From: a virus
Strand: one strand, 5' to 3'
Length of the DNA stretch: 22,376 nt
Virus record (IMG/VR): IMGVR_UViG_3300042731_003938
Span: 1-22,376 of that record
This document shows, one piece after another, positions 1 to 21,027 of this stretch. The notes beneath the pieces were generated by a model, which ran no database searches, was not told the DNA's origin, and saw nothing but the letters and a program-made list of their open reading frames with translations. Position numbers and translations under genes: made by a program. The first letter of the stretch is position 1, and every line of letters starts with the position of its first letter.

Positions 1-666
1 AGATATCTTTTCTGATGCATTTTCGGATAAAATTTGCATCAAACCTGTTCGGTAGTTTATTAGTCGTCCAATAGTATACATGTTGTTTTTCTCCTTTAAA
101 AAAATTCTTGGGTTTGATTTTATATAATCAATAAAATTCGGAAAGCGGTCATATTCTTTTTCCCGTGTAACATACATTTGATAATAAACAAAACCCGGTG
201 TATAATACCTTGTTTTAACGAGATATTCTAAACCGCTGGCAAAATCTAAATCTTCACCGCGCCCTATTGACCTATATCCAGATTTTAAAGCAAGCTCTCT
301 CTTTACTGGGCAAAAATGATTTAATCCAGAAGCCTCCCCATCATAAGGGTTATCAAAGCCGGATCGATATTCATGCTTCAATACACCGTCTTCATAACGC
401 TTTAAGCCTATACATATAACATCACAATCGCTTTCAATCCCTTTTAATACTTCATCAAAATAATCTTCAGAAAGAATGTCATCGTCATCAACAACAACAA
501 CATATTCACCAACCGCAAATTCAAGAATCCTTTGCCTCTTGTCTCCCAAGCAATCATCACCAAAGTCAACAAGCACCTCACACCACTCAGGTGCATTATT
601 TTGTAACCAAGATACAAAAGATTGTTCTCTGTTTTTTAAGGTTGCTATGCAGATGCTTAATTTCAT
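1..666 (-). CDS. Family 2 (GT-A) glycosyltransferase, C-terminus cut by window edge
   Basis: The reading frame is open from ATG 666 to base 1 (222 codons, no stop), so the C-terminus lies outside the window. The N-terminus MKLSICIATLKNRE is the usual first strand of GT-A glycosyltransferases. Residues 56-63 are VVVVDDDD, matching the DxD site that binds the metal and nucleotide sugar. Residues 137-142, GEDLDF, resemble the acidic ED motif that often carries the catalytic base. The start codon overlaps the stop of the tail fibre gene (ATGA), and the best Shine-Dalgarno (AGGAG) is about 13 bases away, so translational coupling is likely. Position at the end of the tail operon suggests that it glycosylates a virion protein, such as the fibre or major tail protein, or modifies host surface sugar. 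The family call is firm; donor, acceptor and biological target are unknown. Confidence 0.85.
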   Translation of the reverse strand, partial: MKLSICIATLKNREQSFVSWLQNNAPEWCEVLVDFGDDCLGDKRQRILEFAVGEYVVVVDDDDILSEDYFDEVLKGIESDCDVICIGLKRYEDGVLKHEYRSGFDNPYDGEASGLNHFCPVKRELALKSGYRSIGRGEDLDFASGLEYLVKTRYYTPGFVYYQMYVTREKEYDRFPNFIDYIKSNPRIFLKEKNNMYTIGRLINYRTGLMQILSENASEKIS

Positions 667-3758: not shown

Positions 3759-6700
3759 GAAATACCCTCATCTATATTTTCACCGCCAATTTGTTCGTCT
3801 AGTTGTGTTCCTCCAAACTGTTCATCTAACGTCATTATCTCCGTACTTTCGGTTACATATATATTATTTAACGTTGTAAACATTACCCTGACAATAGAGT
3901 TTGCATAGTCTAAAGATATGTTCGTTATCAGGCCTTGCACAATTTGGTCATTTGTATCTTTCAGGTCTTTATAAAAAATGAAATTCCCGATTCGGATCTT
4001 AAAGAAGTCATGCTCTACGGACGCATTGTAGTCAATGTAATATTTCAAATCTACTGCTATTTCGTAGTCAAAATGCACATGGCTAAACACCTCCAGTAAT
4101 TTACCATAATCGTTTAATACCGTTAAGTTAGGTGTGTAGTAAAGCGGAGTAAATTCCTTTGATCTTATGTTTTGACGCAGATAATAATAAGCCTCTTGGA
4201 TTGACTCCAAAACAGCCGTACTTGGAAAATTACTCTCAATATAATCAGTGCTATCAACGGTCAACGGGTCGTTAATGTCATAGATAACGTTTCGTGTGTT
4301 TTGCGAAATAAAGGTTCCATCAGCGTTGTCGTTTTCGGATCCTGTGTCACACGTTATGTTAATTAAGCTGTAGGCATCGTTATAATAACTCGACACCTGC
4401 ACATCTGACATAGACCCATATATTGGAGTTACTCCAGTAGTATTATAAAAGTCTGACAAATCCCGGCTTAAAAGCGTAGTGTTTACCACAGTTAGCTTTC
4501 CATCCAGGTTAGTGCCTATCTGATTGTATCCCCCAGAAAACAAATCTCCTATCATCTCATCGATTGTTTGCCGCTCTTCCTCGAATGAGTTAAACGCTGC
4601 GTATGTGTTGCAATATGCATTAGTCGGAGTGTTTTCATACTCAACCTCGATCAAGCTGTCTTTACCAACAACAAAAGACGGTATTTGCTGCGAATCGTCC
4701 AGCATTACATCTTTCTGCGTCCACATCCTGTTAATGACATAATCACTTAGAGCGGGTAACTTATAATTTGCTGAATCTGAGCTGGCGTTATAGGATAGGT
4801 TAACGCTTTCTAATTTTGAATATTCTTTTTTGTAAAAATGAAAATTATTAAAAACAAGTTTAGCGACATGTTCTCCAGGTCCATCAGTTGAAACAGAAAA
4901 GTTAATGTATATATACATTTTTTGACCAGACTCTAAATTACTTTTAGAAATTGATAAAGGCCCTACTATATCATTAGAGTTTAAGCAAATTTTTGATAGT
5001 TCTGGCTGAGCTGGAACGCTACTAATTTCAAATGTAGAGTGATAAGGTTCATCATGCATTTGCGCGCCCAAAGTCATAAAACTATGATAATAACTATCGT
5101 TTGTATCTAATAAAATTCTTCTTGGTAAAGTACCATTACCTGAAGCAATAGCAAAATCAGTTGTTGAGTTTGCCGCGTCATATTCAAAATCGCTTCTTGA
5201 TGCATATATTTTAAATGTAGTTGTGGTGTTTGGTTTAAAAACAGTATAGTTACCTGTAGAGCTTATGAACTGAAATAAAAATCCAAATTCTAAATTTTCA
5301 TCATCTGGTATTTGATCAAATGGGATGCTAAGCAAAACACTTACATTATCAGTCGTTGAGCCTGTTTGTACATAGTCTATATATGTCGGGATTGAATCAG
5401 AACCTAAATAGTAAGAGTTATAATCATTAGTAAATGTTTCCTCTGAATTGCCGACATATGTTAACGTACTATAAGAACTAAACTTGCCTTCATATTTTGG
5501 ATGTACAGAAAATTCCTTAATCAACACATTTCCCATACTATCAACATATGGCATTTCTTTCTCAGCATCATAGTCGCCGGATCCGTCAATAGAGTAAGAC
5601 GTGCGCGTGTTGGTGGTCATCTTAATAGCACGGACAAGGTTTAAAGAATATTTCTGAGCAAACCAGAAGTTTTGTATCGTTACTGCGTTTGTTGTTCCAA
5701 AGCAATTGTTTTCAAAGCCTATAGTCCGGGCCTGATCCTGAGTGTAAGAAAACTTGTCGGGGTTATCCATTAAAACAAAGTCAGGAGAATCAACGGAAGT
5801 AAGGCATACATAAACCTCACTATTAACAAGCTCAGAAGGATCACCAGAAACATAGATGCGATACCGGCTAAATGATGAGTGGTTATCTATCCACTCTATG
5901 CGATGCACAAAAAATGTCTGCTTATTCTCAGGGAAAGCGACACCCCACATAGGAGAGGTGTTCGAAATGCTTGGATTTATAACAGACTCTTCGCGGCTTT
6001 TTATTTCGCACAGTGTCGCGTTATTCAAGAAGGCTAAATAATTATCAAAGTCTCCCGAATCAAAGTCACTTTTTAAAGGGCCATAAATCAGTATCTCACC
6101 GAAGTCAGAGCCCGGAGCATTAGTACCCTCCAGGACACCAAGGTATTTATAAAAGTCCTCTCCTTTATACTCAAGTGTATCATAAGGGTCTATTCCGGTA
6201 GTTAAACTAGGAGAGGCCGGATCCACCAATATAGGGTAATAACTGTAGTCAATAGGCTTGACCGCGTTTTCAATATTAACTCCGATGCTTGAATCTACAT
6301 TATACCAATGTGACCCGGTTAGTGGGATCTTCCGATTTGATTCATAGTTTTCAATTGCTGTTTTACCTGATACAGGGTAGGACTCCAAATTATGAAAAGC
6401 CCCCAACATTAAATTAGGCAAGACCTGATCTTTAATGCGCTCATACAAGCTACCCAAAACAAACTCAACGGAAGAGCCGCTAAGATTGATAGCGGTCACA
6501 ACACCCTTATAAACATCCTTTGTTACAGCGCCATTTATAACAAGGTGCACCCGGACAACGGAGTTAATTAAAGAGGACCGGTCTTGCAAATAATCTGGAT
6601 AGAAATCCTCATAAATAATTGTAAAACCGCCGTTGCTGAATATCTCATTACCATCGCCGTTTAATACATTGGTGGAGGCTTCAAAGCCGGCAACGCCGCT

Positions 6701-8548: not shown

Positions 8549-11071
8549 TTAGAAACCTCTTACAGCTTTGCGCCCCGACCGTGTGTTTCGAAAGTTGGAA
8601 TCAGCAATAACCTGATCAAGCACCCTAGTACCTAACTGTAGCTGAATGATTGTTGGTTGATTTTGATTGTTATTACTTAATGTTGAGTTGCCTTTTATAA
8701 GGTCATAAAGTCTTTTGGAGTCCTGATTATTTAAAACCATCTCCCCCGGGTTTGCTGCGATTATCTGACGGTCACCAAACATTGATGTGCCAGTCTGCCG
8801 CTGTACAACACCAGAAGATGCATAAGACGGGACGGCGGCACTTTTAATAGCACTTACAGCCCCCATAGTGGTCCCTAGCGCAGCAGTTGCAGAAACAACC
8901 TTTGTGATTACCCCACCAGCCTGATTCGCCATAACAGAAGCGAAAGCCCTCCAAGCGTCAACCGTGGCTAAAACAGCGGATGCAGCCTGCAAGTATTTAA
9001 AAAACTTAGATGTCTCGCTACCCATGTTTTGGATGTTTGACAAGCTTTGCTGAATGCCGGCGACATTTGTGTCCCAAAGAGTCTTCGAACTTTCAGCAAG
9101 TTTTTTATTCAGCTCATCGGTACGCCTTTTATATTCGTCATCTATCTTTTCTTTTGCACCAACAACTTGTTTGTATTTCTCTATTTGCTCCTGATACCAA
9201 AGCTCTGTTTCTTCCTTCTCGCGCTCTAACGGCTCCTCAATAGCCGCGATCTTCCATTCTTTACGTTTTGCTTCAAACTCTTTTTCCAGTGCAAGTTGCT
9301 CATCCTGCATCTTTTGGGTTTGCTTAATAAACCTTTGTTGCAAAGATAAATCACGCTCAATCTCTTTTATATTAAGCTGTTCCAGCTTGCGCCTGTAAAT
9401 GTCACTAATTAAAAGCTTTTTATTTTCATTTTCTCCATAAAGCTCAAGTTGCTTTTTATACCAAGCCTCTATTTCTTTGCGCTCTTTTATAATAACATCT
9501 GTGGTAAGCTCTAGGCGCCATTTAGCAAGCTGCTCATAAAAAGACTTTTCTTTGTCTAAATCAATTGTGCTGGCCGGAGCTCCGGGGGTTTCTGTTTTAG
9601 GAGGCTTTGCCAGTTCTTGCTGTTTGATTTTCCTTTTAACAAGCTCTGCATTTATCGCGCGCAGTTGATCAAGGTCTTTACCATTAAGATCATACATTGT
9701 CTTTAATGGGGCAAGTTGATTTTTAATACTAGCAAGCCTTTCTTTATAGGCCCTTCCCTCTTCTTGCATCTTGGCATAATTTTGAGTACCAGAACTAAAG
9801 TCTTCCCAAGATATATTTTCCAACTCTCGCTGAAGTTTTATTATTTTTTGAAAATCGCTAATAGCTTCTTTCGTGCTAAATTGATCTGCAAGCTTTTCAG
9901 TCTCTTTGCGCTCTGTAAAAAACTCCGTCCACCAGGTGAGGGTTTCGGTAAGGGTCTGAGTTAAAGAGCGTAGCATCCCATCTGCTGAATCTTCAATTGC
10001 AATTTGCATTTCAGACCAAGCAGACTTAAGCTTTGTCACGTCTCCCAACAAATTGTCAAGCTTTAACTCAGCCATGCGGCGGACAGCACCATCAGCCTTT
10101 TCTAAGCTCTCCCGGTACTCATCTATTTTATCCGCATTTTTTAAAAGGACCTGTGCGGAGGTAGCGGATAATTTACCAAACAAATCAGAGACTTCAGAAA
10201 ATGTAAGACCAGCTTTAGAAAGGGCTTTTAATTTTTCCGTAGTTGTCGCCGCCGCATCTACGCCCAAAGATTTTAATTTCTTTGAAAGCTCACTACCTTG
10301 TGAATTTAAATCTATAAAAACACGCTTTAACGCTGTCCCCGCAACAGTCCCGTGTATAGCGTTATTTGCAAGTATCTCAAGATAAGAAGTAGTTGTCTCT
10401 AATGTCTCATTAACAGCATTGGCAGCCGGTCCCGCATACTTCATAGATTCAGCGAACCTATTCATATCCAATGCCGAATTAACAAAAGAAGTGGCCATAA
10501 CATCGGCCACCTTAGTGCTTTTAGCTGCATTCATTTCAAACTGCTGTAAAGTAGAAGCCATTGTTTCGGCAGAATACGACATCTCTTCGCCTGACGCCGC
10601 GGCTAAATCCAAGACAGAAGCGGAAGATGCTACTATCTCATTGGTTTTAAAACCAACTTTAGCAAGCTCAGTGAACGAATCAGTAGCCTGCTTTGCTGTA
10701 AACGCAGTAGACGCGCCAAGGTCTCTAGCGGTGTCCTCCAGTATTGATAATTGGATGGCCGTTGGCTGAGCTATTGCCTCAAGGCCAGATAAAGAAGCCC
10801 GGAACTCAGCCCCCACCTTTATCGAATCAGCAAGAACATCAAATGTTTTTTTAGCGGCTGCACCGAAAGCAAGATATTTAGCAATAGGAAGGGCACTTCC
10901 GAATTCTTTAAAAAGCGCACTGCCTTTTTTTGTCTTCTTATTAAGATTCGTTTGATTTTTTTCTAATGAGTTTAAAGCCTTAGAACCATTCTTTTCTAAA
11001 CGCGCAAATCCTGCGCTCATCTCGTCTTTTAGATCGAGTAATAGTTCTACTTCATCCTTTTCAACACTCAT
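8549..11071 (-). CDS. Tail tape measure protein
   Basis: An 840-residue protein with the TP901-type tape measure core at about residues 88-300. Recognisable stretches include FRASLSGLEAIAQ, LGASTAFTAKQATDSF and the Ala/Ser-rich helices that follow. Residues about 440-690 are charged helical coiled coil with many Lys, Glu and Gln. A hydrophobic, Ala-rich segment at about 700-765 may be membrane-active. The C-terminus contains GEMVLNNQDSKRLYDLI, common near the ends of tape measure proteins. It sets tail length and is normally ejected into the host envelope with the DNA. Its ATG overlaps the stop of the tail chaperone T frame (ATGA) and has no strong Shine-Dalgarno, so coupling is likely. No lysozyme or peptidase domain was seen. 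Confidence 0.93.
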   Translation of the reverse strand: MSVEKDEVELLLDLKDEMSAGFARLEKNGSKALNSLEKNQTNLNKKTKKGSALFKEFGSALPIAKYLAFGAAAKKTFDVLADSIKVGAEFRASLSGLEAIAQPTAIQLSILEDTARDLGASTAFTAKQATDSFTELAKVGFKTNEIVASSASVLDLAAASGEEMSYSAETMASTLQQFEMNAAKSTKVADVMATSFVNSALDMNRFAESMKYAGPAANAVNETLETTTSYLEILANNAIHGTVAGTALKRVFIDLNSQGSELSKKLKSLGVDAAATTTEKLKALSKAGLTFSEVSDLFGKLSATSAQVLLKNADKIDEYRESLEKADGAVRRMAELKLDNLLGDVTKLKSAWSEMQIAIEDSADGMLRSLTQTLTETLTWWTEFFTERKETEKLADQFSTKEAISDFQKIIKLQRELENISWEDFSSGTQNYAKMQEEGRAYKERLASIKNQLAPLKTMYDLNGKDLDQLRAINAELVKRKIKQQELAKPPKTETPGAPASTIDLDKEKSFYEQLAKWRLELTTDVIIKERKEIEAWYKKQLELYGENENKKLLISDIYRRKLEQLNIKEIERDLSLQQRFIKQTQKMQDEQLALEKEFEAKRKEWKIAAIEEPLEREKEETELWYQEQIEKYKQVVGAKEKIDDEYKRRTDELNKKLAESSKTLWDTNVAGIQQSLSNIQNMGSETSKFFKYLQAASAVLATVDAWRAFASVMANQAGGVITKVVSATAALGTTMGAVSAIKSAAVPSYASSGVVQRQTGTSMFGDRQIIAANPGEMVLNNQDSKRLYDLIKGNSTLSNNNQNQPTIIQLQLGTRVLDQVIADSNFRNTRSGRKAVRGF

Positions 11072-11444: not shown

Positions 11445-11825
11445 TTACTCCTTTCCGATAGCGCCTATACCATCTATCTCAAAACAAAGTTTAGTGGCCT
11501 CAATCTCTCCTATCTTTTTAACAAACATAGGTATATCTTCTTTTTCTAATGCTTGAGAGTTAACACGTATAACAGGAATAGCAAGCACATGGCAAATCCC
11601 TTCGCGCGCCTCTCCAGTAAGCTTTATTACACCGGCCTCATCGCGACAAACAGCCTTACCACTGTCTTTATCCTCATCAAAACATTGCGCTATTTCGTCC
11701 CTGATAGACGACATTTCCAGCATGTTTTTTGTATAATCAGCGGCTTCCAATATATCAAGCTCTTCTATCTCAATCTCATAGCCGTTAATTTCTGTTTTGA
11801 ACACTTCTTTGTTAAACAATGACAT
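11445..11825 (-). CDS. Tail assembly chaperone, G-like
   Basis: A 126-residue acidic protein between the major tail protein and the tape measure gene, matching the size and position of tail assembly chaperones. The start ATG has AAGGAG about 7 bases upstream. A candidate late promoter (11859-11869) and the major tail terminator lie just before it, so it probably begins its own transcript. Its end (…GAIGKE stop) contains the candidate slippery site C GGA AAG, from which a minority of ribosomes could move into the T-like frame. The chaperone would coat the tape measure and keep it soluble during assembly. Assignment rests on synteny and the frameshift architecture. Confidence 0.7.
   Translation of the reverse strand: MSLFNKEVFKTEINGYEIEIEELDILEAADYTKNMLEMSSIRDEIAQCFDEDKDSGKAVCRDEAGVIKLTGEAREGICHVLAIPVIRVNSQALEKEDIPMFVKKIGEIEATKLCFEIDGIGAIGKE
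11451..11457 (-). promoter_or_regulatory. Candidate -1 programmed frameshift site (C GGA AAG)
   Basis: The last codons of the G-like gene read ATC GGA AAG GAG TAA. The heptamer C GGA AAG differs by one base from lambda's G GGA AAG. Slipping back one base pairs tRNA-Lys with AAA and enters a frame open through the stop and on to 11068. The heptamer lies in a possible 5-bp hairpin (CGGAA with TTCCG, 8-base loop). Only three bases separate it from the zero-frame TAA. Confidence 0.6.
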
Positions 11826-11858: not shown

Positions 11859-11869
11859 TATTTAACGAC
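11859..11869 (-). promoter_or_regulatory. Candidate late promoter before tail chaperone gene
   Basis: GTCGTTAAATA on the minus strand, 33 bases before the G-like start and immediately after the T-run of the major tail terminator. A -35 element at normal spacing would fall inside the terminator hairpin, where none is visible. This suggests a -10-only promoter. It shares its core with the copies at 13115, 16603 and 18763. Confidence 0.5.
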
Positions 11870-11901
11870 ATAAAAAAAAGGCATCCCCGAAGGGACACCT
11901 T
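11870..11901 (-). terminator. Rho-independent terminator with UUCG loop after major tail gene
   Basis: On the minus strand a 10-bp stem (AAGGTGTCCC with GGGATGCCTT, two G-U pairs) closes a TTCG tetraloop and is followed by eight more T residues. It lies about 30 bases after the major tail stop and before the tail chaperone gene. Confidence 0.92.
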
Positions 11902-11905
11902 AAAC

Positions 11906-11926
11906 GATGATTTGGAGAAAATCATC
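11906..11926 (-). other. Hairpin just after the major tail protein stop
   Basis: A perfect 8-bp inverted repeat (GATGATTT with AAATCATC, loop of 5) begins 3 bases after the TGA stop and precedes the UUCG terminator. It has no T-run of its own and may protect the 3' end of the major tail mRNA from exonucleases. Confidence 0.6.
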
Positions 11927-11928
11927 TG

Positions 11929-13086
11929 TCAGATAAAACACATGTAGTAATCACCATCGGAGTCACTCTCATCAAACGCACGGAATGAAAGCTCCCAAGT
12001 CATTATATTGTCAGTAAAGGAAGAAGACGGAGGGGAGGAAAACTGCACATTACCACGGAAGTAAACTGTATTTGATGTAGTCCCGTCACCTATCCTGTAC
12101 TTAACCTTCATTGACGTTCCTGTTCGATAAAGTTCTTGTGGATCAAACTCAGAATAAGGTGAGGCCTTTACAGTAAGAACAAAAGCCGCAGAACTCCGAT
12201 CTACAATGTATGCACTGTCAAAACCGGTATCATCGCTTGCGTTTTTCCAAAGAGTAGTGCTATTTCCTAAATCGAATTCAGCGGACTGGCAATTCATCGC
12301 ATAAGTTGTCGCGCCGTCAACAAGCTCAACAATTCCCCCCACGAAAGCAGCCGGCTCATTAGCAGTATATGTGGCAGTAGGCAGAGCCGTGTCTGTCCAG
12401 TTATCAGGATCGTCCTTGCCTTGGATGGTAAAAGAAAATTTCGTTAACTCCAAAGCGGTAGAAGAAAAAGTACAAGTGCCGGCACACTCACGCAAAGCAC
12501 GTAGCAAACCGTTATTCCACAAAAACACAGAACCAACCTGCTCAGAGGTTGAATCGGGGTAGACATAAAAAGAGGTGTCAGACACGGAAGAAATAGTTCC
12601 AACGGCATCCACTCCCACAGAAACATCTTCAGCGGCAGCAAATGTACCAGTAACGCCAGAAACGATAATATTCACACCGTCAATAACTTTTATCGTCCCA
12701 GTTGCCCCGCTTGTGTCGCCCGTTAGAGTGTCTCCCTCTTCTGCGTTTGTCGCGGCTGCGGTTAATACGATTAAAGGATTTTCTTCGTAGCTTTGCCCGC
12801 ATACTTGCAGCGCAGGAAGTATCGCAGGGTCCAGAGCTTGGTCAGTCGAATGCAGGTTACCGTTTAAGGTGGCTGTTCCTGCGTTACCACCGGGAAGGTC
12901 TTTTTTATTTGACATGGTGCGACCCACCACATCAGCTTGGGAATTAGTAGTGCTATCCCCCATATCAATATTAGAGTCGTTGGTTACTTCAAGAGCGTTT
13001 GTTAAAGAGGTTGGAGGCGTAGGATCCGTTCCTCCAGTCTTAAGCACAACAGCTGCTAAGGATAATTTTTGTTTTATAGACGACAT
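11929..13086 (-). CDS. Major tail tube protein
   Basis: A 385-residue protein located between the tail completion and tail chaperone genes, bounded by its own candidate promoter and a strong terminator, as expected for the most abundant tail protein. The N-terminal half contains TNSQADVVGRTMSNKKDL, of the type common in tube subunits. Residues about 117-160 hold a Gly/Thr-rich segment (GDTLTGDTSGATGT) found as an insertion in many phage virion proteins. The C-terminal half is beta-rich and ends RAFDESDSDGDYYMCFI. It is longer than the 150-250 residues of simple tube proteins, so an added surface domain is likely. Start ATG has GAGG about 7 bases upstream. The virion role is inferred from position, composition and expression signals. 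Confidence 0.8.
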   Translation of the reverse strand: MSSIKQKLSLAAVVLKTGGTDPTPPTSLTNALEVTNDSNIDMGDSTTNSQADVVGRTMSNKKDLPGGNAGTATLNGNLHSTDQALDPAILPALQVCGQSYEENPLIVLTAAATNAEEGDTLTGDTSGATGTIKVIDGVNIIVSGVTGTFAAAEDVSVGVDAVGTISSVSDTSFYVYPDSTSEQVGSVFLWNNGLLRALRECAGTCTFSSTALELTKFSFTIQGKDDPDNWTDTALPTATYTANEPAAFVGGIVELVDGATTYAMNCQSAEFDLGNSTTLWKNASDDTGFDSAYIVDRSSAAFVLTVKASPYSEFDPQELYRTGTSMKVKYRIGDGTTSNTVYFRGNVQFSSPPSSSFTDNIMTWELSFRAFDESDSDGDYYMCFI

Positions 13087-13114
13087 TCTATAGCCTCACA
13101 TTTCATTAATTACT

Positions 13115-13125
13115 TATTTAACGAC
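13115..13125 (-). promoter_or_regulatory. Candidate late promoter before major tail gene
   Basis: GTCGTTAAATA begins one base after the preceding gene's stop and ends 28 bases before the major tail start. It is an 11/11 match to the copy before the tail chaperone gene. No TTGACA-like -35 is seen upstream. Confidence 0.5.
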
Positions 13126-13126
13126 T

Positions 13127-13540
13127 TTAATTTAATGGTATTTTTATCATTAGTTCCCAAACTATATTTGCATAAGTCTGGTATTCCTTGTTTGTGTTTG
13201 GAGAGTAAGACCCGTCAATCATTACAACGTTTTCGGCGCCACTTAAAGTTATATTTGAATAAATTGTTTGGATTATGTTTTGAAAATCAGTGGCCGCCGC
13301 TTTTTTTCTCTGCGCTCCGGTTAGCGTGGAAATACTACCACGGATAAACTCAACATTGTAGTTAAGCATTAGTGTTAAATGATTTGTTTGCTGGATATCT
13401 GCTGGCCGTATATCATCAACAAAGGTCCAGCATGAAACGCCCTCGGTAACATCATCGGTACTACCATCCTGATTCATCGCAAAACCTAAATCGCCTATTG
13501 CCGCGTCAAAAACAGAAATCACATCATACATGTTCGCCAT
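13127..13540 (-). CDS. Tail terminator / tail completion protein
   Basis: A 137-residue protein immediately before the major tail gene, the usual place of the tail terminator (lambda gpU type, pfam tail completion families). The sequence alternates helices and strands: an N-terminal helix (MANMYDVISVFDAAIGDLGF), central strands and a C-terminal strand ending WELMIKIPLN, consistent with the small alpha/beta fold of these proteins. Start ATG has AGAGGA 6 bases upstream. It would cap the finished tail tube and provide the surface that joins the head. Family membership is inferred from order and size. Confidence 0.65.
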   Translation of the reverse strand: MANMYDVISVFDAAIGDLGFAMNQDGSTDDVTEGVSCWTFVDDIRPADIQQTNHLTLMLNYNVEFIRGSISTLTGAQRKKAAATDFQNIIQTIYSNITLSGAENVVMIDGSYSPNTNKEYQTYANIVWELMIKIPLN

Positions 13541-13543
13541 AGG

Positions 13544-13957
13544 TTATCCTCTGTTTGTCTCGACAATACTCGGAGTAGAATAGACGGTATCATCATCGGG
13601 AGGGTTGTCAGGATCGTAGACCTCATCTGCTTTAATATCAGCTTCTGCCTTTGCACAAGCGGTTGACCAAGTATTATACCGTAACTCCCATTGATCTACA
13701 GCGATGTTTTCTGCGATCTGGCTTAAATCGCTTCCGATGCTTGAAAATGCCACATCCACACACACCTTTAAGATAAGAAACTCTTTTACTTTTTTTTCCG
13801 GTGATGTGGGTAAGTTAGCAACCGGGATGTTTAAAGTATCTGCCAAGTCATGCCAATAAACAGACACCAAATCATCAGCAATAAAAGCTGGTGTGGTGGT
13901 CACCTTATGCATAACTTCAGAATATTTAGTAAAATCGGATGTGGTTAATATAGCCAT
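13544..13957 (-). CDS. Head-tail connector / adaptor-like protein
   Basis: A 137-residue, mainly helical acidic protein lying between the gp10-like gene and the tail terminator. The first 110 residues look like a helical bundle. The last 30 are a Pro/Asp-rich tail (YDPDNPPDDDT). Head completion adaptors of the HK97 gp6 or SPP1 gp15 type have this size and all-helical nature and bind below the portal. In many phages they come before rather than after the gp10-like gene, so the order here is slightly unusual. The start lies one base after the previous stop (TAGCATG), with GGGG 7 bases upstream. No signature motif was seen. Confidence 0.5.
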   Translation of the reverse strand: MAILTTSDFTKYSEVMHKVTTTPAFIADDLVSVYWHDLADTLNIPVANLPTSPEKKVKEFLILKVCVDVAFSSIGSDLSQIAENIAVDQWELRYNTWSTACAKAEADIKADEVYDPDNPPDDDTVYSTPSIVETNRG

Positions 13958-13958
13958 G

Positions 13959-14441
13959 CTAAAACCCCAGTTCTTTGTATATTTGTTTAGACGCTTTTTT
14001 TAAAGTGTCTAATCTTCTTTTTCTCCAGGCCTTTTCAAACCACTTCAAGTTTTTATTATTTTTTGTAGTGCTTCTAACGCCTTTCGCGCGCCCGGTCCTT
14101 TTTCTCCCCATCCACACGCCACTGACTTTATGGCCTTTTTTATCAGGCCTAACCCAATGCCACTTTGTGCCGTAATAAAGATATGTAGCATAAGACAACC
14201 TTGTATATAATAAAGAGCCTAATTCCTCTCTCTTGCGGCTTAACGATCTTGTTAAGTGGCCCTTCTTATCTTCCCAGGGATGTTTCGCTTTGACATCAGA
14301 CAAAACTTTTCCTGAGGCCTTCCAATATATATTTGAGATTGACAAGACTATTTTTTTTCCAGTCCCGCCATTATCTCCAAATATATTTGTAACATGGGCA
14401 CTAAGAGCCGAAAACGAATTAACCGTTGTCTTCTTTGACAT
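13959..14441 (-). CDS. HK97 gp10-like neck / tail completion protein
   Basis: A 160-residue basic protein with the layout of the HK97 gp10-like family. An N-terminal helical region is followed by KGHLTRSLSRKRE (compare the TGnLrrSI motif of the family), then the hallmark YATYLYYGTKWHW (compare yA.yvEyGt). A C-terminal helix, FEKAWRKRRLDTLKKASKQIYKEL, is usual in the family. The insert RPDKKGHK…RTGRAKG is strongly basic. The family acts at the neck between head and tail. It overlaps the preceding gene by 23 bases and has no strong Shine-Dalgarno, so coupling is likely. Confidence 0.78.
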   Translation of the reverse strand: MSKKTTVNSFSALSAHVTNIFGDNGGTGKKIVLSISNIYWKASGKVLSDVKAKHPWEDKKGHLTRSLSRKREELGSLLYTRLSYATYLYYGTKWHWVRPDKKGHKVSGVWMGRKRTGRAKGVRSTTKNNKNLKWFEKAWRKRRLDTLKKASKQIYKELGF

Positions 14442-14826
14442 CGCTTATTGTCTGTTCATCGTCTTGTTTCTTTTGCGCTCTTTTGCGGGTAGTCTTTGCG
14501 ATGCCCGGCAGTAAAGCAACATTAAAACGATCATATTTTTCCAACAGTGACTCCGTGAGGACGTACACTGGTATTAACACCTTGTCCTCAGATTCAGGAT
14601 CAATATAATGTTTTTTTCGATTACTCCAAAAGCCTTTCGATTCAACAAATGCCGCATCAACAACACGGTAAGAAGAAAATTCTTTCATCTTTGGCGTGCC
14701 ATGCGGAATAATCAAATAAGGCCTTTTATCTGTCTTATTCCTCTTCCCAGCAGGAGTAAGGCCCCTTAGAGCCTGCTGAAGCTCTGGGGAAAGGTTTTGT
14801 AAAGAATTTTGTAATTCACCATTCAT
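14419..14826 (-). CDS. Unidentified protein between major capsid and neck genes
   Basis: A 135-residue protein I do not recognise. The first 40 residues (MNGELQNSLQNLSPELQQAL…) look helical and Gln-rich, the middle is mixed with many aromatic and Lys residues, and the last 20 are charged (KKQDDEQTISDVKEDNG). Position after the major capsid gene and before the gp10-like gene suggests a head completion or decoration role. It has a good Shine-Dalgarno (AAGGAG, 8 bases from ATG), which lies just after the terminator-like hairpin at 14844-14869, so its mRNA is probably made by read-through. No function is assigned. Confidence 0.6.
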   Translation of the reverse strand: MNGELQNSLQNLSPELQQALRGLTPAGKRNKTDKRPYLIIPHGTPKMKEFSSYRVVDAAFVESKGFWSNRKKHYIDPESEDKVLIPVYVLTESLLEKYDRFNVALLPGIAKTTRKRAQKKQDDEQTISDVKEDNG

Positions 14827-14843
14827 GTTTTAATCTCCTTAAA

Positions 14844-14869
14844 TAAAGGGCTGAATAAACAGCCCTTTA
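14844..14869 (-). terminator. Terminator or attenuator after major capsid gene
   Basis: A perfect 10-bp stem (TAAAGGGCTG with CAGCCCTTTA, 6-base loop) follows the capsid stop by about 14 bases. In the direction of transcription it is followed by a weak U-rich stretch (TTTA of the stem then TTTAAGG). The weak tract suggests partial termination, giving more capsid than neck mRNA. Confidence 0.7.
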
Positions 14870-14883
14870 ATTCATCGTTATTA

Positions 14884-15885
14884 TTAAGCAGCGGCCTGAG
14901 GTACAATCAACTGAACACCGCAAATGTCTTTCACATTATCGACAATCTGGTCCCAGTTTGTGGCGGTTGCTAATTCTGCGTCACTGGGGAAAACACCTCC
15001 GTTGGTTTCGTCCCAGGACAAGCCACGTATGCCAAGGTCAAAGTTATAGTTTGCCTGCCATTGTGTATACAGGTTTTCTTGCCCTGTCTTTTCTTCCATC
15101 ATGTTTGTTTGGGACGTATTTGAAATCTCAGCAGCACCGTCAACCAAGCCAATAATTTTGTATACATCACGAGTACCATCATTATAAGCAAGTGCCGGGT
15201 CATCTGTAACGATAACAGAACGCCCCTGCAAAGGAACTGAACCATTTCGATACGCCATACCAGTAACATCTAAAACATTGTCATCAATAGCATTGCCGAC
15301 AAGTTGATAATAAGCCCCACTATGCATTGCTAATGTACCAATAGAGCCACCTTTATCACCAAACTTTGCAAACATGTTATTTAACATTGCTTGAGTAACA
15401 ATAGCTCCACCAGCCGAATTATCAAGAGTAGCCGCAGCCACACCATTCAAGCCGGCTCCAATGCATGCAAGAGATGTGTTTACCTGGTCCAGCATGTAAG
15501 CGTCTGCATACTGATTGGCAACCTCAGTAAGAGCCTCAGCTGTAGCAGAATTCATCTCACTCCCGCTAACAGCATCCATTATTACAGCATTAGGGATTAT
15601 GATAGGGGCAAAGCCACCAGCGATTTTAATCTTTTTGTACAGTGACTCGCTGTAATCGACTGGAGTAACTGCATCAGTAGAAGACGGATCACGCCTATAC
15701 TGGCTTGAGCGCAGGTTGTTTGCAAAGCGGAAATTGCTTACTTCGCCCGATCCACTAAAACCGCCTAAACGAATTGCATTCCCAAAAACAGAAATATTCT
15801 GAGACAACCGATTCTTCGCAAGCTCAGTCAAAATGCGGGTTGTCTGGTCAAACATCGAAATGTTTGCTAAAACTTCATTAGCCAT
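14884..15885 (-). CDS. Major capsid protein
   Basis: A 333-residue protein directly after the scaffold gene. The N-terminus (MANEVLANISMFDQTTRILTE) and the central segment with APIIIPNAVIMDAVS resemble HK97-fold coat proteins of the major-capsid-protein-13-like or phage coat type. The middle (LGGKGGS-like GDKGGSIGTLAMHSGAYYQL) fits the A-domain region, with a receptor-like strand pair after it (GRSVIVTDDPAL). No N-terminal protease-cleaved delta domain is apparent, consistent with the separate scaffold gene. It has AGGA about 9 bases upstream of ATG and a terminator behind it, fitting high expression. It forms the icosahedral shell. Confidence 0.88.
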   Translation of the reverse strand: MANEVLANISMFDQTTRILTELAKNRLSQNISVFGNAIRLGGFSGSGEVSNFRFANNLRSSQYRRDPSSTDAVTPVDYSESLYKKIKIAGGFAPIIIPNAVIMDAVSGSEMNSATAEALTEVANQYADAYMLDQVNTSLACIGAGLNGVAAATLDNSAGGAIVTQAMLNNMFAKFGDKGGSIGTLAMHSGAYYQLVGNAIDDNVLDVTGMAYRNGSVPLQGRSVIVTDDPALAYNDGTRDVYKIIGLVDGAAEISNTSQTNMMEEKTGQENLYTQWQANYNFDLGIRGLSWDETNGGVFPSDAELATATNWDQIVDNVKDICGVQLIVPQAAA

Positions 15886-15911
15886 AAAAAGCCATCCTTT
15901 TATCTAAAATT

Positions 15912-16586
15912 TTACACTGACGTCATGACTCTTTGTCTTGCCGCCAGAAACTTTTCTTTAGCCGTCTTTCCCTCAGCTATTCCTTTTGCGCCTACCGCGC
16001 CAACACCAGAAGCCCCGCTACCCGGGACGACTGGATTTACCTTTAAATACTCTCTCTCATTGACATACTTTTCGATCAAAGAATCAACACTATCGCCAGC
16101 TTCAGATACAAGCTCACCGGCTGAGTTTTTAACGAAAGTATATTTCAACGTTAAATAATCAACTGCATCGGATAACGCCTGATCCGACTTAACACCAGAG
16201 GAATACAAAGCGTCTCTAACATGAGACTTTGACTGCTCTGTAAGAGTTTCTTTCTTCGCTTGGTTTAACTCATTTTGATAAGATGACAAACTCCCCTGGA
16301 GCTCTTCGACTTTCTTAGTTAAACTCAAAACATCGATTTGGCTAACCTCATCAGCACCTTTAGACTGCTGACCAACAGCAGACATTAACTGGCTTAATGA
16401 TGTTTTCAGCTCCGTCATAGAGCCGGCGTATTCTTCAGATTTTTCCCGATGTCCTTTAGCCTCTCCCTTTAGCTTGCCGGTCTCGCTCTTAATTGCCTCA
16501 ACGATAGCAGCCGGGTCAAAGTTTTTAGGATCGAACTCTTCTTTTCCGACCTCTTCAATTTTTGTTAACGCTTCTCCAAATTCCAT
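15912..16586 (-). CDS. Capsid scaffolding protein
   Basis: A 224-residue highly charged, helical protein with coiled-coil character through about residues 40-120, rich in Lys, Glu, Gln and Ser, located just before the major capsid gene. The C-terminal part has a Gly/Ala-rich linker (VPGSGASGVGAVGAKG) and then a basic helix ending AARQRVMTSV. In scaffolds a basic C-terminal helix contacts the coat protein. It lacks a Ser-His protease signature. A candidate late promoter overlaps the stop of the previous gene, 16 bases before its ATG, and AGGA lies about 7 bases upstream. Start and role are well supported by context. Confidence 0.82.
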   Translation of the reverse strand: MEFGEALTKIEEVGKEEFDPKNFDPAAIVEAIKSETGKLKGEAKGHREKSEEYAGSMTELKTSLSQLMSAVGQQSKGADEVSQIDVLSLTKKVEELQGSLSSYQNELNQAKKETLTEQSKSHVRDALYSSGVKSDQALSDAVDYLTLKYTFVKNSAGELVSEAGDSVDSLIEKYVNEREYLKVNPVVPGSGASGVGAVGAKGIAEGKTAKEKFLAARQRVMTSV

Positions 16587-16602
16587 ATCATTTCCTTTTT
16601 CT

Positions 16603-16613
16603 TATTTAACGTT
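16603..16613 (-). promoter_or_regulatory. Candidate late promoter before scaffold-capsid genes
   Basis: AACGTTAAATA on the minus strand, overlapping the end of the head morphogenesis gene (its final CGT TAA codons form part of the motif) and ending 16 bases before the scaffold ATG. Transcription would start about 7 bases after the motif and give a leader of roughly 10 bases with an AGGA. No -35-like element was seen. Confidence 0.45.
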
Positions 16614-17364
16614 TTTTCTTTTTAACTTTAGTATAAAAGCACCCGCACAAGGTATGCCGCGGCAATGAAGGAGCTTCCTGAATTGATCTATACGTCTTTC
16701 CGGCATAGCCCAGACATTCAGAGCAATGCTTTTCCCTTGCGCCTAGATTATATAGCACTTCGCCAGTCATTGTCTTTAATGATTTTAAATATGTGACACG
16801 AGTCTTCGTTGAAAGGCGTATTGCATTTTCCCGGGCGTTCATATTTATTCCAAGCATTTGACCAAATCGGTTTGTAATGTCTTTAGCTATCGCCTGCATT
16901 AACTCTTCATCCGTGCGCCCTGTTATGCCCATTGACTTTAAATAGTGCCGTCTTTCCTTTGTTAGATGCCCTACAGCTTTGTTATATCTATCATAGTTTT
17001 TGATAACAGTGCCACGGAAAAGCTTTATACTAACATTCCATGTTTTATTTAACTGAGTATCTATTGTAGGCGCGCCCTTTGAGTCATAAGCTTTTTCATC
17101 TTTTATCTCATCCCACGAAACACCATTATCTTTTTCAATCTGCTCAATCAGCCTTGTCCTATAGGCGGCTTTATGACTTTTAAATACCTGTGTAAGCTCT
17201 CTATTAACCTGAGCCTTTGCTCCTCCTCCAAATATCTCTCTGGATGACACCTCTATTATATCATCTAACAAGTCTCCTGAAAAAGCACTCCCAGAACGCT
17301 TTGGAATGGATCCAAGGAGACTTTCGATTTCTTTGTCTATGTCTATTAGATACTCGACAGCCAT
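16606..17364 (-). CDS. Minor head (Mu F-like) head morphogenesis protein
   Basis: A 252-residue protein following the portal gene with a TAATG overlap of stop and start. It is mostly helical and basic. The C-terminus has the zinc-finger-like signature of the Mu F / SPP1 gp7 family: H213-C214-x2-C217, then GK.Y, then H237-x2-C240-x-C242 (REKHCSECLGYAGKTY… HTLCGCFYTKV). Family members lie next to the portal, are minor head proteins, and are needed early in head assembly. Spacing to the GGAGG Shine-Dalgarno is 12 bases, a little long. A poly-Lys/Arg end (KKKKR) contributes to the promoter-like motif at 16603. Confidence 0.85.
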   Translation of the reverse strand: MAVEYLIDIDKEIESLLGSIPKRSGSAFSGDLLDDIIEVSSREIFGGGAKAQVNRELTQVFKSHKAAYRTRLIEQIEKDNGVSWDEIKDEKAYDSKGAPTIDTQLNKTWNVSIKLFRGTVIKNYDRYNKAVGHLTKERRHYLKSMGITGRTDEELMQAIAKDITNRFGQMLGINMNARENAIRLSTKTRVTYLKSLKTMTGEVLYNLGAREKHCSECLGYAGKTYRSIQEAPSLPRHTLCGCFYTKVKKKKR

Positions 17365-18731
17365 TATTCTTCAGAGCCTCCACCTTCTTCCTCTATGTCT
17401 TCTGCTCCTTCAAAGTCATCATCTAATGACCCTATCTGCTCCGTTGAGTTAGCTTCTTCAGCGTCTAAAATATCTTGCTTACGCACAATAGACGCATTAG
17501 GAAAAAAGGAAACCGACATTTTTTTACGAATTTCTTTTTGAGTGAAATCAGATACACCAAGGTCAACAAGGCTGTGAGCGTTTAAAAGTTGGTCAGTTAA
17601 AGTAAGAGATGCAAAATCGTTGGGGTATTCCACGATATAATCATTATCTATTCCGACTTTATCACAAAACGACTGAACAATAGCTTCTTCAATCTCTGAC
17701 ATTTTCAGAGATCTTGTCTTTAGCTGTTCTATCCGCAATATATCAGAGTAAGCCCTGGAAGCCCCTGACGCATCCGCTGAAGTTGATAATACATTTAGGT
17801 TGCATGTCTCAAAGATTTCTTTTTTCTGCGCTTCAATTTCCTCTCTAATAGATGCCATCGTATTAGGCGGAACAATGTAATCTGGCTTTTGCATTGGTTG
17901 GTTAGATAGAGGGGCGCCATTCCAAACATTGTTTTCCGCGAATGTTGCATCTTTTTCTAGCGGTTGGTTACCATTCCACAAAATCGGAAATGTCATTTGG
18001 TCACATTGCAAATTAATCCTTGACTGCAAGTTATAAATCGACCGACACCTATAGGCTATTGTTGCGTAAGATGATGGAGGCAGCTCCCACGGGCTTTCGT
18101 ACCCGCCAAAGCAACATACAAGAGGCTCTGTTAATGGTTTCCCAGGCTCTTCTATTGGCGCGTATCCGTCCAAATCATCAGAGTACAACGCTTTAAAAAA
18201 GAATCCATTATCATAAACCTCGTATTGCGGGACTCCGTTTAAATCACCGCATTGGTAACGCATATAGATCAGTTCATTTTCCGACTTCAACTCATACTCA
18301 TTAATAAACAGAGGAGTCACTTTAACAACATACGGGTAAGCGCGCACTTGAGACATTTCCAAACGAGTTTCTGGCTGCTCTCTCAATGAGTCAACAAAAG
18401 TAATTACAGAGCCGAACATTTCCATTTCGATTGCCATGTTACGCATAAAGTCTGCAAAGCTTGTCCCGTTGCCGTCACAGTCCCTAAGAAACGCATTTAA
18501 CAAATCATTTTGCGAAGAGCGTGATACGCTATTAACTATAGGATAGACGCTACCACCTACAACCATCTGCATGTAATTGGCATAAGAAGAAAGCCTTAAC
18601 CGGATTCTGTATTTTTCTACTTTTTCGTTTGACCCCTGAATTAAGTAAGAGCCATCTTTAAACCCACCGCTCCCGTAGAACGCATCAGAGATAAGCTGTT
18701 GTTCAGCCGTGTCAACAAATATTCTGCCCAT
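17364..18731 (-). CDS. Portal protein
   Basis: A 455-residue protein between terminase and the Mu F-like gene. The N-terminal region (YRIRLRLSSYANYMQMVVGG) and the middle region with SPWELPPSSYATIAYRCRSIYNLQSRIN fit phage portal proteins. The segment SGASRAYSDILRIEQLKTRSLKMSEIEEAIVQSF, around residues 330-365, is of the type seen in the crown-side helices of portals. The acidic, Glu-rich C-terminus (EDIEEEGGGSEE) is also usual. It would form the dodecameric ring at the head vertex through which DNA is packed and released. Preceded by a candidate late promoter at 18763; Shine-Dalgarno weak. No database match was run. Confidence 0.87.
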   Translation of the reverse strand: MGRIFVDTAEQQLISDAFYGSGGFKDGSYLIQGSNEKVEKYRIRLRLSSYANYMQMVVGGSVYPIVNSVSRSSQNDLLNAFLRDCDGNGTSFADFMRNMAIEMEMFGSVITFVDSLREQPETRLEMSQVRAYPYVVKVTPLFINEYELKSENELIYMRYQCGDLNGVPQYEVYDNGFFFKALYSDDLDGYAPIEEPGKPLTEPLVCCFGGYESPWELPPSSYATIAYRCRSIYNLQSRINLQCDQMTFPILWNGNQPLEKDATFAENNVWNGAPLSNQPMQKPDYIVPPNTMASIREEIEAQKKEIFETCNLNVLSTSADASGASRAYSDILRIEQLKTRSLKMSEIEEAIVQSFCDKVGIDNDYIVEYPNDFASLTLTDQLLNAHSLVDLGVSDFTQKEIRKKMSVSFFPNASIVRKQDILDAEEANSTEQIGSLDDDFEGAEDIEEEGGGSEE

Positions 18732-18762
18732 ATATAAACCCGCTTATAAGTGCTTTAACACA

Positions 18763-18773
18763 TATTTAACGTC
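18763..18773 (-). promoter_or_regulatory. Candidate late promoter before portal gene
   Basis: GACGTTAAATA on the minus strand, starting 2 bases after the terminase stop and ending 31 bases before the portal ATG. It has the same core as the copies at 16603, 13115 and 11859. No TTGACA-like element is seen 17 bases upstream. Confidence 0.5.
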
Positions 18774-18775
18774 AT

Positions 18776-19963
18776 TTATATTGAGCCACTCAAACAAAGA
18801 CTTGTTTGCGATCCTTTGGTATAATTAAAGCACATTGATATCGCATCACCCTGGTCATCATGGTCATGAGACATGTCTTCGCGGAATTCGTCAAGCTCTT
18901 CTATTGCTGTTTTATTCCACGGCGCTGAATTAAAATAAACTCTGCCGGAATACATAGCAGTGGCAAGGCCGATGTTTTTAATAGGCTTAGATACTACACT
19001 TTTCCAGGGTATAATAGTATGACCATACAAATCAGGGTCAGCAATAAGGTCATCGTAAACGGCTATCTGAGGCCCTTGAGCGTCAACAATGCAGGGGCAG
19101 TTTATTTCGTTTAGTTTTGCTTTGATTAACTGCTTTATTTGTGGGATCTTAAAACGATGCCTCTCAACATGCAGGACGATAAAATTATTATTGTTATCAA
19201 CCCCACACAAGGCGTATGCCGTGTAGTCACTTTTGTTATGCTCAGTAAACGCTAAATCAAACGCCTGAACAAGGTGAGTAATAACGCCATAGCCATTATA
19301 TTTAATTCGTTCGGTTGGGAAATATTTGTCACCAAAAGAAACTACTAAACCCTCAAGCTCTTGTTTTGCAAAAGGGCTATCAGGGCCGCCGTATTCCTTC
19401 AGGAGCGTCTCATAAAACTTTTCTGAAAGAAAATAATTTTCTGAAAGACTTTGTGTTAATAGTAAGCAGTCATCTTGCTTTGATAACTCATAAACCCAGT
19501 CTTTACCTTTAGGGGATGATGTTATATAAACAGTTCCGTTAGGGTTTGCCGACATACGGCCAATTGCACGCAAGTAACAAGCGTTGTTTTTTAAATAGCT
19601 CCCCTCATCTATCCATACATGCCCGCACTTAAAAGCTCTTATCTCCTCCGGCTTTTCTCCTGACCGCAAGATTACTTTGTTCTTCCCTATCCACACCACT
19701 TTTTTGCTTAGTACGGATCGAACGGGAATATCCATCATCTCACCGCACTCTTCCAGAGTAGACACCACACCATCTTCAAGCATCTTATATGATGGGGCTA
19801 TCGCAAGGACGTCTTCTTTGTCTTGTAATGTATGTTTAAAGGTACGATAAGACCCGACATATGTCTTGCCTGATCTAATGCCAGCGCGAAATATCGTCAC
19901 CCTCTTGTTTGATGTCAAGAAACTTACCTGTTTAGGCAATAGGTCAATATTTCGAACACTCAA
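18776..19963 (-). CDS. Terminase large subunit (packaging ATPase and nuclease)
   Basis: A 395-residue protein with the complete terminase signature. It has an adenine-binding type LLPKQ near residue 8, Walker A at 26-34 (RAGIRSGKT), Walker B at 115-120 (HVWIDE) with the catalytic Glu, and coupling motif TSSPKG at 148-153. The nuclease triad consists of D236 (QAFDLAF), D294 (CIVDAQ) and D373 or D369/D370 (HDDQGDA). It pumps DNA into the prohead through the portal and cuts concatemers. The start is a TTG at 19963, since the first in-frame Met is at residue 61, beyond Walker A. No strong Shine-Dalgarno is visible. An in-frame TAG, the stop of the small subunit, lies one codon upstream. Length is short for the family but both domains are present. 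Confidence 0.93.
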   Translation of the reverse strand: MSVRNIDLLPKQVSFLTSNKRVTIFRAGIRSGKTYVGSYRTFKHTLQDKEDVLAIAPSYKMLEDGVVSTLEECGEMMDIPVRSVLSKKVVWIGKNKVILRSGEKPEEIRAFKCGHVWIDEGSYLKNNACYLRAIGRMSANPNGTVYITSSPKGKDWVYELSKQDDCLLLTQSLSENYFLSEKFYETLLKEYGGPDSPFAKQELEGLVVSFGDKYFPTERIKYNGYGVITHLVQAFDLAFTEHNKSDYTAYALCGVDNNNNFIVLHVERHRFKIPQIKQLIKAKLNEINCPCIVDAQGPQIAVYDDLIADPDLYGHTIIPWKSVVSKPIKNIGLATAMYSGRVYFNSAPWNKTAIEELDEFREDMSHDHDDQGDAISMCFNYTKGSQTSLCLSGSI

Positions 19964-19966
19964 ATA

Positions 19967-20422
19967 CTAGTCTCGCTTATCTTTTACATTGATATTAAAA
20001 GTGACTTCCTGATCTTGCAGCTCTTCGGCTTGTTCTTTCCATCGATTACCGCCGACATGATTCAAATAAAACTTAATTGCGTTAACATCGGGAAGGGCGT
20101 ATCTTTCCGTTATCTCCATTCGGCTGCCATTTTTATCCTTAGTGATCTTTTTCTCTTTATATGTAAAACCTTCTATTCTTTGCTGTAATTTTTTTTCCGC
20201 TACATTTACTCCGTAAGCATCTCGGCCTTTTTGTATAAACTTGGAAAACTCCGGGTAATCTTTTTTCCATTGATAGATGGTTGACTCATTCACTCCGAAC
20301 AAATCAGCTAATTCATTTGTCTGGCCGCCCTTTGATAAAAACACCTCTGCCATCGTGTTAAAACGCTCTTCATACGCCGTGGGCCGGCCTCCTGGATGCT
20401 TTTGTCTTTGTTTTTTAGCCAT
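19967..20422 (-). CDS. Terminase small subunit
   Basis: I chose ATG 20422 (MAKKQRQKHPGGRPTAYEE, 151 residues) over the TTG at 20428. It has an N-terminal basic region, the GGRPT motif common in phage small terminases, and a helix-turn-helix at about 34-54 (QTNELADLFGVNESTIYQWKK). The oligomerisation region that follows contains YGVNVAEKKLQQRI and LPDVNAIKFYLNHVGGNRWKEQ, typical of this family. It recognises the packaging site on phage DNA and passes it to the large subunit. Neither start has a Shine-Dalgarno, but it overlaps the end of an 18-codon ORF (20415-20471), so translation may be coupled. The stop TAG is in the same frame as the large subunit. Confidence 0.88.
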   Translation of the reverse strand: MAKKQRQKHPGGRPTAYEERFNTMAEVFLSKGGQTNELADLFGVNESTIYQWKKDYPEFSKFIQKGRDAYGVNVAEKKLQQRIEGFTYKEKKITKDKNGSRMEITERYALPDVNAIKFYLNHVGGNRWKEQAEELQDQEVTFNINVKDKRD

Positions 20423-20471
20423 TATCAATTTGTGGGTTATCTGGATTAATTCTTAAATCTGCTACTTTCAT
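20415..20471 (-). CDS. 18-codon micro-ORF with ParB-like N-terminal motif
   Basis: ATG 20471 encodes MKVADLRINPDNPQIDNG and ends at TAA 20417-20415, overlapping the terminase small subunit start by 8 bases. It begins 3 bases after the sigma-like gene's stop. LRINPDNP matches the L…NP.NPR strand that opens ParB-like nuclease domains, which in many phages lie beside terminase genes. It may be a decayed ParB start, a coupling leader, or chance. There is no strong Shine-Dalgarno. Confidence 0.35.
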   Translation of the reverse strand: MKVADLRINPDNPQIDNG

Positions 20472-20474
20472 TTT

Positions 20475-20900
20475 TCAACCGAAATTTATTTCAACCTGGA
20501 TGTTTTTTTTTCTTACTCTTGCTGTCTTCCTCATGCCGTCCCACACAGTTTCATTGTGATCTATATAATTTAACGTTGTATCTGGAGTTGCTTTTTCGAC
20601 AATCAGATCAAAATTTTTTTCAACGATTCTTTCGCGACGCTTTTCTTTTCTTATCTCATCAAGTAGCCGGCTTTTTATATTTTGCCTTAAGAATGAGCAA
20701 AAATTTTTCCGGTCAGGGTCATGCTTTGGAATACACTCCCTGACAGAAAAAAAATATTGATCCATAACATCTTGATAATTAAAGCCCTCTTTTATTACTG
20801 GCTTTGTCACATCTATACATAGTTGCACCAGCTCTTCTTCTATTTCGCGGTATTGCTGTATAAGCTCATTCGCTCTTTCGTTTATTCTTTCGTAGCTCAT
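20475..20900 (-). CDS. Sigma-70 region 2-like phage transcription factor
   Basis: A 141-residue protein. Residues 42-91 match sigma regions 2.2-2.4. YQDVMDQYFFSVRECI corresponds to the DL.QEG..GL..A helix, and HDPDRKNFCSFLRQNIKSR to the FDP.RG..FS.YA…I. segment. LLDEIRKEKRRER corresponds to the I.D.IR..R end. There is no region 4 helix-turn-helix: residues 92-141 are short and basic. The C-terminus, IQVEINFG, contains Q135-V-E-I-N-F140, which fits the QLxLxL-type clamp-binding hexapeptide. T4 gp55 likewise is a minimal late sigma with a clamp-binding end. It lies just before the terminase and structural genes. The start has AGGA 8 bases upstream. The sigma-like call is good; role as a late sigma is inference. 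Confidence 0.78.
   Translation of the reverse strand: MSYERINERANELIQQYREIEEELVQLCIDVTKPVIKEGFNYQDVMDQYFFSVRECIPKHDPDRKNFCSFLRQNIKSRLLDEIRKEKRRERIVEKNFDLIVEKATPDTTLNYIDHNETVWDGMRKTARVRKKNIQVEINFG
20565..20577 (-). promoter_or_regulatory. Near-match to late-promoter motif upstream of terminase
   Basis: Within the sigma-like gene the minus strand reads ACAACGTTAAATTATA, an 8/9 match to CGTTAAATA, about 145 bases before the terminase small subunit start. It lies in coding sequence and is weak evidence alone. Confidence 0.2.
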
Positions 20901-21027
20901 CGTTGTCGTCCTGTTGTCGTTGTAACAGTTGTTTATACCACTCTTTATTTTTTATGGCTTGATGTAGGCTTAAATCAGCCCTATCATGCTCCTCCATTTG
21001 ATGCGTTATAATATCTGTTGTTGTCAT
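20866..21027 (-). CDS. Small unidentified phage protein (53 residues)
   Basis: ATG 21027 to TGA 20866 encodes 53 residues beginning MTTTDIITHQMEEHDRADL and ending LRKNKRKSE. It has a good Shine-Dalgarno (GAGG, about 8 bases from ATG), which overlaps the end of the preceding gene, and its own end overlaps the sigma-like gene by 35 bases. Coupled translation with that gene is likely. It is helical and charged with no motif I recognise. Being adjacent to and overlapping the sigma-like gene, it could be a partner or co-factor of it, but nothing in the sequence proves this. Confidence 0.65.
   Translation of the reverse strand: MTTTDIITHQMEEHDRADLSLHQAIKNKEWYKQLLQRQQDDNDELRKNKRKSE

Follow-up and report, generated by a model that had tools for sequence, protein, structure and literature searches.

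The window analyzed here, the whole of an IMG/VR virus record (22,376 bases), is a fragment of the genome of an uncultured tailed phage, the remainder of which is missing. It combines a nine-base word, CGTTAAATA, repeated shortly before structural genes, with a gene for a small protein of the sigma-70 family that has region 2 only. Judged from the sequence, a minimal phage sigma factor acting on single-element, -10-only late promoters is probably the best explanation of this arrangement. We infer that CGTTAAATA is a promoter, that the 141-aa sigma-like protein reads it, and that the genes concerned are expressed late. The co-occurrence of the motif and the region-2-only sigma gene in one window is suggestive and comes from a single genome.

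Gene Organization of the Window

All main genes are located on the minus strand (Table 1). Small early-side genes come first, followed by the sigma-like gene and then by terS and terL. Next are the genes for portal, minor head, scaffold, and capsid, the head-tail genes, and the major tail gene, after which come the presumed chaperone, the tape measure, and finally the tail genes. Between the first and last genes, approximately 564 bases are noncoding, and no Rfam families or tRNA were found in the window. The gene that follows the motif copy at 11859 had been described as a tail chaperone; its position fits this assignment, but the family search gave no match, and the label rests on position. 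A family-2 glycosyltransferase-like coding sequence downstream of the tail-fibre-like gene (approximately 50-662, minus strand) was spotted by eye.

Table 1. Genes, motif copies, and hairpins of the window.
Feature	Position	Strand	Evidence or remarks
Sigma-70 region-2-only protein, 141 aa (proposed late sigma factor)	20475-20900	-	Pfam and NCBIfam profiles
Terminase small subunit (terS)	19967-20422	-	phrog_309, 6.8e-29; directly downstream of the sigma-like gene
Terminase large subunit (terL)	18776-19963	-	Pfam Terminase_6N, 4.1e-11
Portal protein	17364-18731	-	phrog_145, 1.9e-29
Scaffold protein	15912-16586	-	Pfam Phage_scaffold, 1.8e-4 (under the cut-off); precedes the capsid gene
Major capsid protein	14884-15885	-	33-35% identity to annotated major capsid proteins of phages (tblastn)
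Major tail protein	11929-13086	-	Position and weak matches to same-position ORFs in L017 and L018
Presumed tail assembly chaperone	11445-11825	-	Position only (between major tail and tape measure)
Tail-fibre-like gene	663-3758	-	
CGTTAAATA, copy 1	18763-18771	-	Before portal, 31 nt to ATG (18731); PWM 20.5
CGTTAAATA, copy 2	16603-16611	-	Before scaffold, 16 nt to ATG (16586); PWM 20.0
CGTTAAATA, copy 3	13115-13123	-	Before major tail, 28 nt to ATG (13086); PWM 23.5
CGTTAAATA, copy 4	11859-11867	-	Before presumed tail chaperone, 33 nt to ATG (11825); PWM 22.9
CGTTAAATA, coding copy	3865-3873	-	106 nt before the tail-fibre-like gene; PWM 12.5
CGTTAAATA, opposite-strand copy	16149-16157	+	Inside the scaffold gene; PWM 10.9
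8/9 match, CGTTAAATT	20567	-	Inside the sigma-like gene
Hairpin after the capsid gene, possible terminator	14827-14883	-	-18 kcal/mol, z -5.2; short T-run
Intrinsic terminator after the major tail gene	11868-11901	-	T-run abuts copy 4; 11868-11928, -21.9 kcal/mol, z -4.4

Distribution of the Repeated Motif

An exact search of the whole window found CGTTAAATA at six sites, five of them on the minus strand and one on the plus strand, and all motif coordinates of the sequence-only reading proved correct. Four of the minus-strand copies were measured at the distances of 16-33 bases before start codons that it had given. Its placement of these copies in gene borders holds for the four starts, but the copy at 16603 is not fully intergenic: it takes in the final codon (CGT, Arg) of the minor head gene upstream together with its TAA stop and is therefore slightly weaker as an independent intergenic match. 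The fifth minus-strand copy in coding sequence, the single plus-strand copy, and the 8/9 match were also recovered where they had been reported. The flanks of these three sites are dissimilar, and their PWM scores are far below those of the border copies, a comparison that is partly circular since the PWM was trained on the four border copies. It is doubtful that the copy at 3865 acts as a promoter, and the plus-strand copy is probably a chance one. The copy at 3865 and the near-copy at 20567 (both minus strand) share the longer ACAACGTTAAAT-ATATA and read TTLN in frame, which is probably a coincidence. The late genes with no copy of their own are the 14826 cluster and the terminase genes. The bases just after the motif (48 bases only) are 75% AT vs 64% in the upstream regions of 60 nt; the same AT-richness just after the motif is found in T4 late promoters (PMC2988020).

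Region-2-Only Sigma-like Protein

The sigma-like gene, located directly before terS-terL, had escaped the sequence-only reading. Its 141-aa product matched Pfam Sigma70_r2 over residues 39-89 (1.7e-4; 21.7 bits, below the cut-off of 24), compared with 13.1 bits for T4 gp55, which had no NCBIfam match. Sigma models made up 13 of the 14 NCBIfam matches of the 141-aa protein up to an E value of 1, the best being SigI (2.7e-7), while its reversed and four shuffled versions gave zero sigma matches. A six-frame search of the fragment gave no match to region 4 (PF08281 and PF04545). Structure prediction yielded poor models (pLDDT 50 and 53); for the low-confidence model with pLDDT 53, sigma domain 2 led the fold matches over residues 1-98 (Foldseek E 0.2), a resemblance that may lend the assignment slight support. 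Searches of Pfam, PHROGs, and NCBIfam gave no match of the protein to the terS-adjacent late-activator families (Xpf and RinA/ArpU).

Two small ORFs adjoin the sigma-like gene on the minus strand. One, MKVADLRINPDNPQIDNG (18 codons, 20429-20481), lies between this gene and terS; it resembles the beginning of a ParB-like protein, and its stop overlaps the terS ATG, which suggests a remnant kept for translational coupling. A 53-aa ORF (20866-21027) overlaps the start of the sigma-like gene, where translational coupling is possible.

Search for Relatives

No close relatives were found in IMG/VR with the terminase, capsid, and sigma-like protein as single queries; likewise, megablast against phages retrieved no relative of the window, and GTDB genomes contained no relative of the sigma-like protein. 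The family search for region-2 sigma factors that was used on the relatives was positive for the window itself and gave no Sigma70_r2 match in 28 distant portal relatives (L010-L035) or in 47 capsid relatives (L051-L130). No comparable motif was detected in the tested distant relatives or in portal relatives within bacterial genomes, the latter also giving no Sigma70_r2 match, and the motif and sigma gene occurred together in no relative searched. Most of the 75 distant-relative records are fragments, so the absence of a region-2 gene or motif there is weak evidence.

The sole match of a stricter DNA pattern search was an unrelated 69-kb IMG/VR contig (L039), which encodes a 143-aa region-2-only sigma-like protein (9929-10360, plus strand) scoring over the Sigma70_r2 cut-off and sharing 32% identity over 72 residues with the 141-aa protein. 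Its gene sits in a cluster of replication-type genes. The upstream regions of this contig yielded no enriched word above shuffles, and it therefore neither supports nor refutes a link between sigma factor and motif. The query alignment (A2) included three hand-written generic region-2 rows, which widened the search patterns; these are not real proteins and carry no evidential weight.

Proposed Promoter Architecture

No shared -35 element was found in the 50 nt upstream of the four border sites, where just two columns (-44 and -4) were invariant. The proposal of a -10-only promoter family is supported by this result together with the region-2-only sigma gene, and it is still a prediction. As had been observed, the T-run of a strong terminator lies immediately before the copy at 11859, whose upstream sequence is thus dictated by the hairpin. 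Terminators had been proposed after both the capsid and major tail genes; both hairpins are real by their z values, but a long T-run is present only in the latter.

Alternatively, the sites might be promoters whose -10 element, with a weak or missing -35, is read by a primary or alternative host sigma factor, while the sigma-like protein of the phage serves another function. Some bacteria, e.g., Campylobacterota, use promoters with a weak or absent -35. TAAATA in the motif resembles a -10 element, and the best named relatives of the portal protein are phages of Nitratiruptor, a member of Campylobacterota. However, a fixed nine-base word including CG is tighter than usual host -10 elements, and the best TTGACA-like hexamers upstream of the four sites matched only 2-4 of 6 positions. 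Moreover, a consensus scan of the window for canonical sigma70-type promoters (-35/-10 hexamers at 16-18 nt) showed no excess (24 found vs 27.9 expected) and listed none at the four motif sites. We regard a host sigma factor as an unlikely reader of these sites.

It is less likely still that the word is the binding site of another regulator or an RNA element that influences how the downstream gene is processed or translated. Recurring dedicated operators are a feature of phage genomes, and the copies lie close upstream of starts; nevertheless, CGTTAAATA is not palindromic, its varying distance to the start (16-33 nt) argues against its being part of a ribosome site, and one copy stands directly after a terminator, a place that calls for a new start.

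Chance Expectation of the Motif

By hand estimate from base composition, approximately 0.2 copies of CGTTAAATA are expected per strand, which bears out the earlier statement that such a 9-mer should occur well under once, vs five on the minus strand. Significance was evaluated by shuffling each upstream region with its dinucleotides kept and allowing any 9-mer to win, which corrects for the look-elsewhere effect. The best of all 9-mers reached four upstream regions in 21-26 of 5000 shuffles (P ~0.005) and in 3 of 500 in a smaller run. Given the word, the location of four of the five minus-strand copies at most 45 nt before a start has P ~1e-5, for an interval chosen after seeing the data. One-mismatch matches to CGTTAAATA numbered 17 vs 9.5 expected. 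Among 65 other phage loci, with mechanical gene calls, a 9-mer was present in four upstream regions of only one; that word, TAAAGGTGA, looks like a Shine-Dalgarno-like ribosome site. When the identical test was applied to the T4 late region, the best 8-mer was TATAAATA: four copies lay 14-28 nt ahead of starts and three within coding sequence, and the other strand had none. The window thus resembles a T4-type late region in copy number, spacing, and stray coding copies. Coincidental clustering in AT-rich gene borders (64% in the upstream 60 nt) could draw on there being only four copies and on the mild one-mismatch excess, but it is improbable given that shuffles keeping the border dinucleotides reach this result in 0.5% of cases, that only the one other locus had such a word, and that the motif co-occurs with a region-2-only sigma gene, a kind of gene that is rare among the records searched (0/28 and 0/47).

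Proposed Late Transcription

Under the preferred explanation of a minimal phage sigma factor and single-element promoters, the sigma-like protein would be expressed along with the terminase genes from a promoter lying upstream, bind the host core RNA polymerase via its region-2 domain, and direct the polymerase to CGTTAAATA with no -35 contact. A sigma factor lacking region 4 should need no -35, and single-element promoters are thus predicted. Of the four border copies, the first would drive transcription of portal and minor head, the second of scaffold and capsid, the third of major tail, and the fourth of chaperone and tape measure; two of these four units would end at the hairpins that follow the capsid gene and the major tail gene. 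The promoter case is built on only four sites, one of which overlaps a stop codon, and two of the six exact copies are inside genes.

We lean slightly towards a broader interpretation, in which the window represents a third minimal-sigma lineage of late transcription outside the T4-like and phiEco32-like phages, with the 141-aa sigma factor reading CGTTAAATA as a complete promoter and separate promoters serving the most abundant structural proteins. If so, a sigma factor cut to region 2 and the loss of the -35 would not be confined to phiEco32 and the large T4-like phages, and a compact phage with no visible gp33 or clamp would employ a minimal-sigma design. It would then be among the smallest promoter-recognition systems for a host polymerase and useful for defining minimal sigma requirements. 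A practical rule would also follow: where a phage encodes a region-2-only sigma factor, a single repeated -10-like word should be sought before its late genes.

Comparison with Known Systems

T4 late promoters consist of a single -10-like element with the core TAAATA and no -35, close before structural genes (PMC2988020), and gp55 is a small sigma-70 family protein with region 2 only (PMC2988020, PMC7892883). The window shares with T4 the TAAATA core, the lack of a shared -35, the location near structural genes, and a region-2-only sigma-70 protein. In contrast, its word is CGTTAAATA rather than TATAAATA, with 6 of 8 T4 bases shared. The 141-aa protein resembles SigI/ECF-type region 2 more closely than gp55 does, and its C-terminus, VEINFG, has no evident clamp-binding motif or hydrophobic-acidic end. 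Alignment with gp55 is loose (19% identity), and homology beyond region 2 was not detected. No gene for gp33 or the clamp (T4 gp45) was recognized in the fragment. The phage is small and tailed, and none of the genes tested marks it as a relative of T4. Membership in the T4 system was rejected on the different word, the lack of gp55 homology beyond region 2, and the lack of a clamp-binding end. T4 late promoters had been named as the closest known parallel; the proposed system would work like late transcription in T4 and phiEco32, but by the features tested the window does not belong to the T4 family.

The late promoters of Aeromonas phage Aeh1 retain the TAAATA core, but a/gC stands in place of the first two T4 bases (PMC2988020). 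The window is similar in keeping this core with the first two T4 bases changed; unlike in Aeh1, a T4-family phage, GT replaces TA and C precedes. In phiEco32, the sigma factor gp36 has no region 4, which is the explanation given for its single-element middle/late promoters (tAATGTAtA), with starts 6-8 bp downstream (PMC8948821). The window likewise combines a proposed phage sigma factor lacking region 4 with candidate single-element promoters, whereas the word differs and phiEco32 is a podovirus.

The position of the sigma-like gene has parallels of its own. In several phages, late activators (e.g., Xpf of PBSX and RinA/ArpU) are encoded beside terS, and the sigma-like gene resembles these in lying directly before terS and in its late-gene role as proposed here. 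By analogy with T4 and phiEco32, the phage probably follows a known strategy with its own version of the parts.
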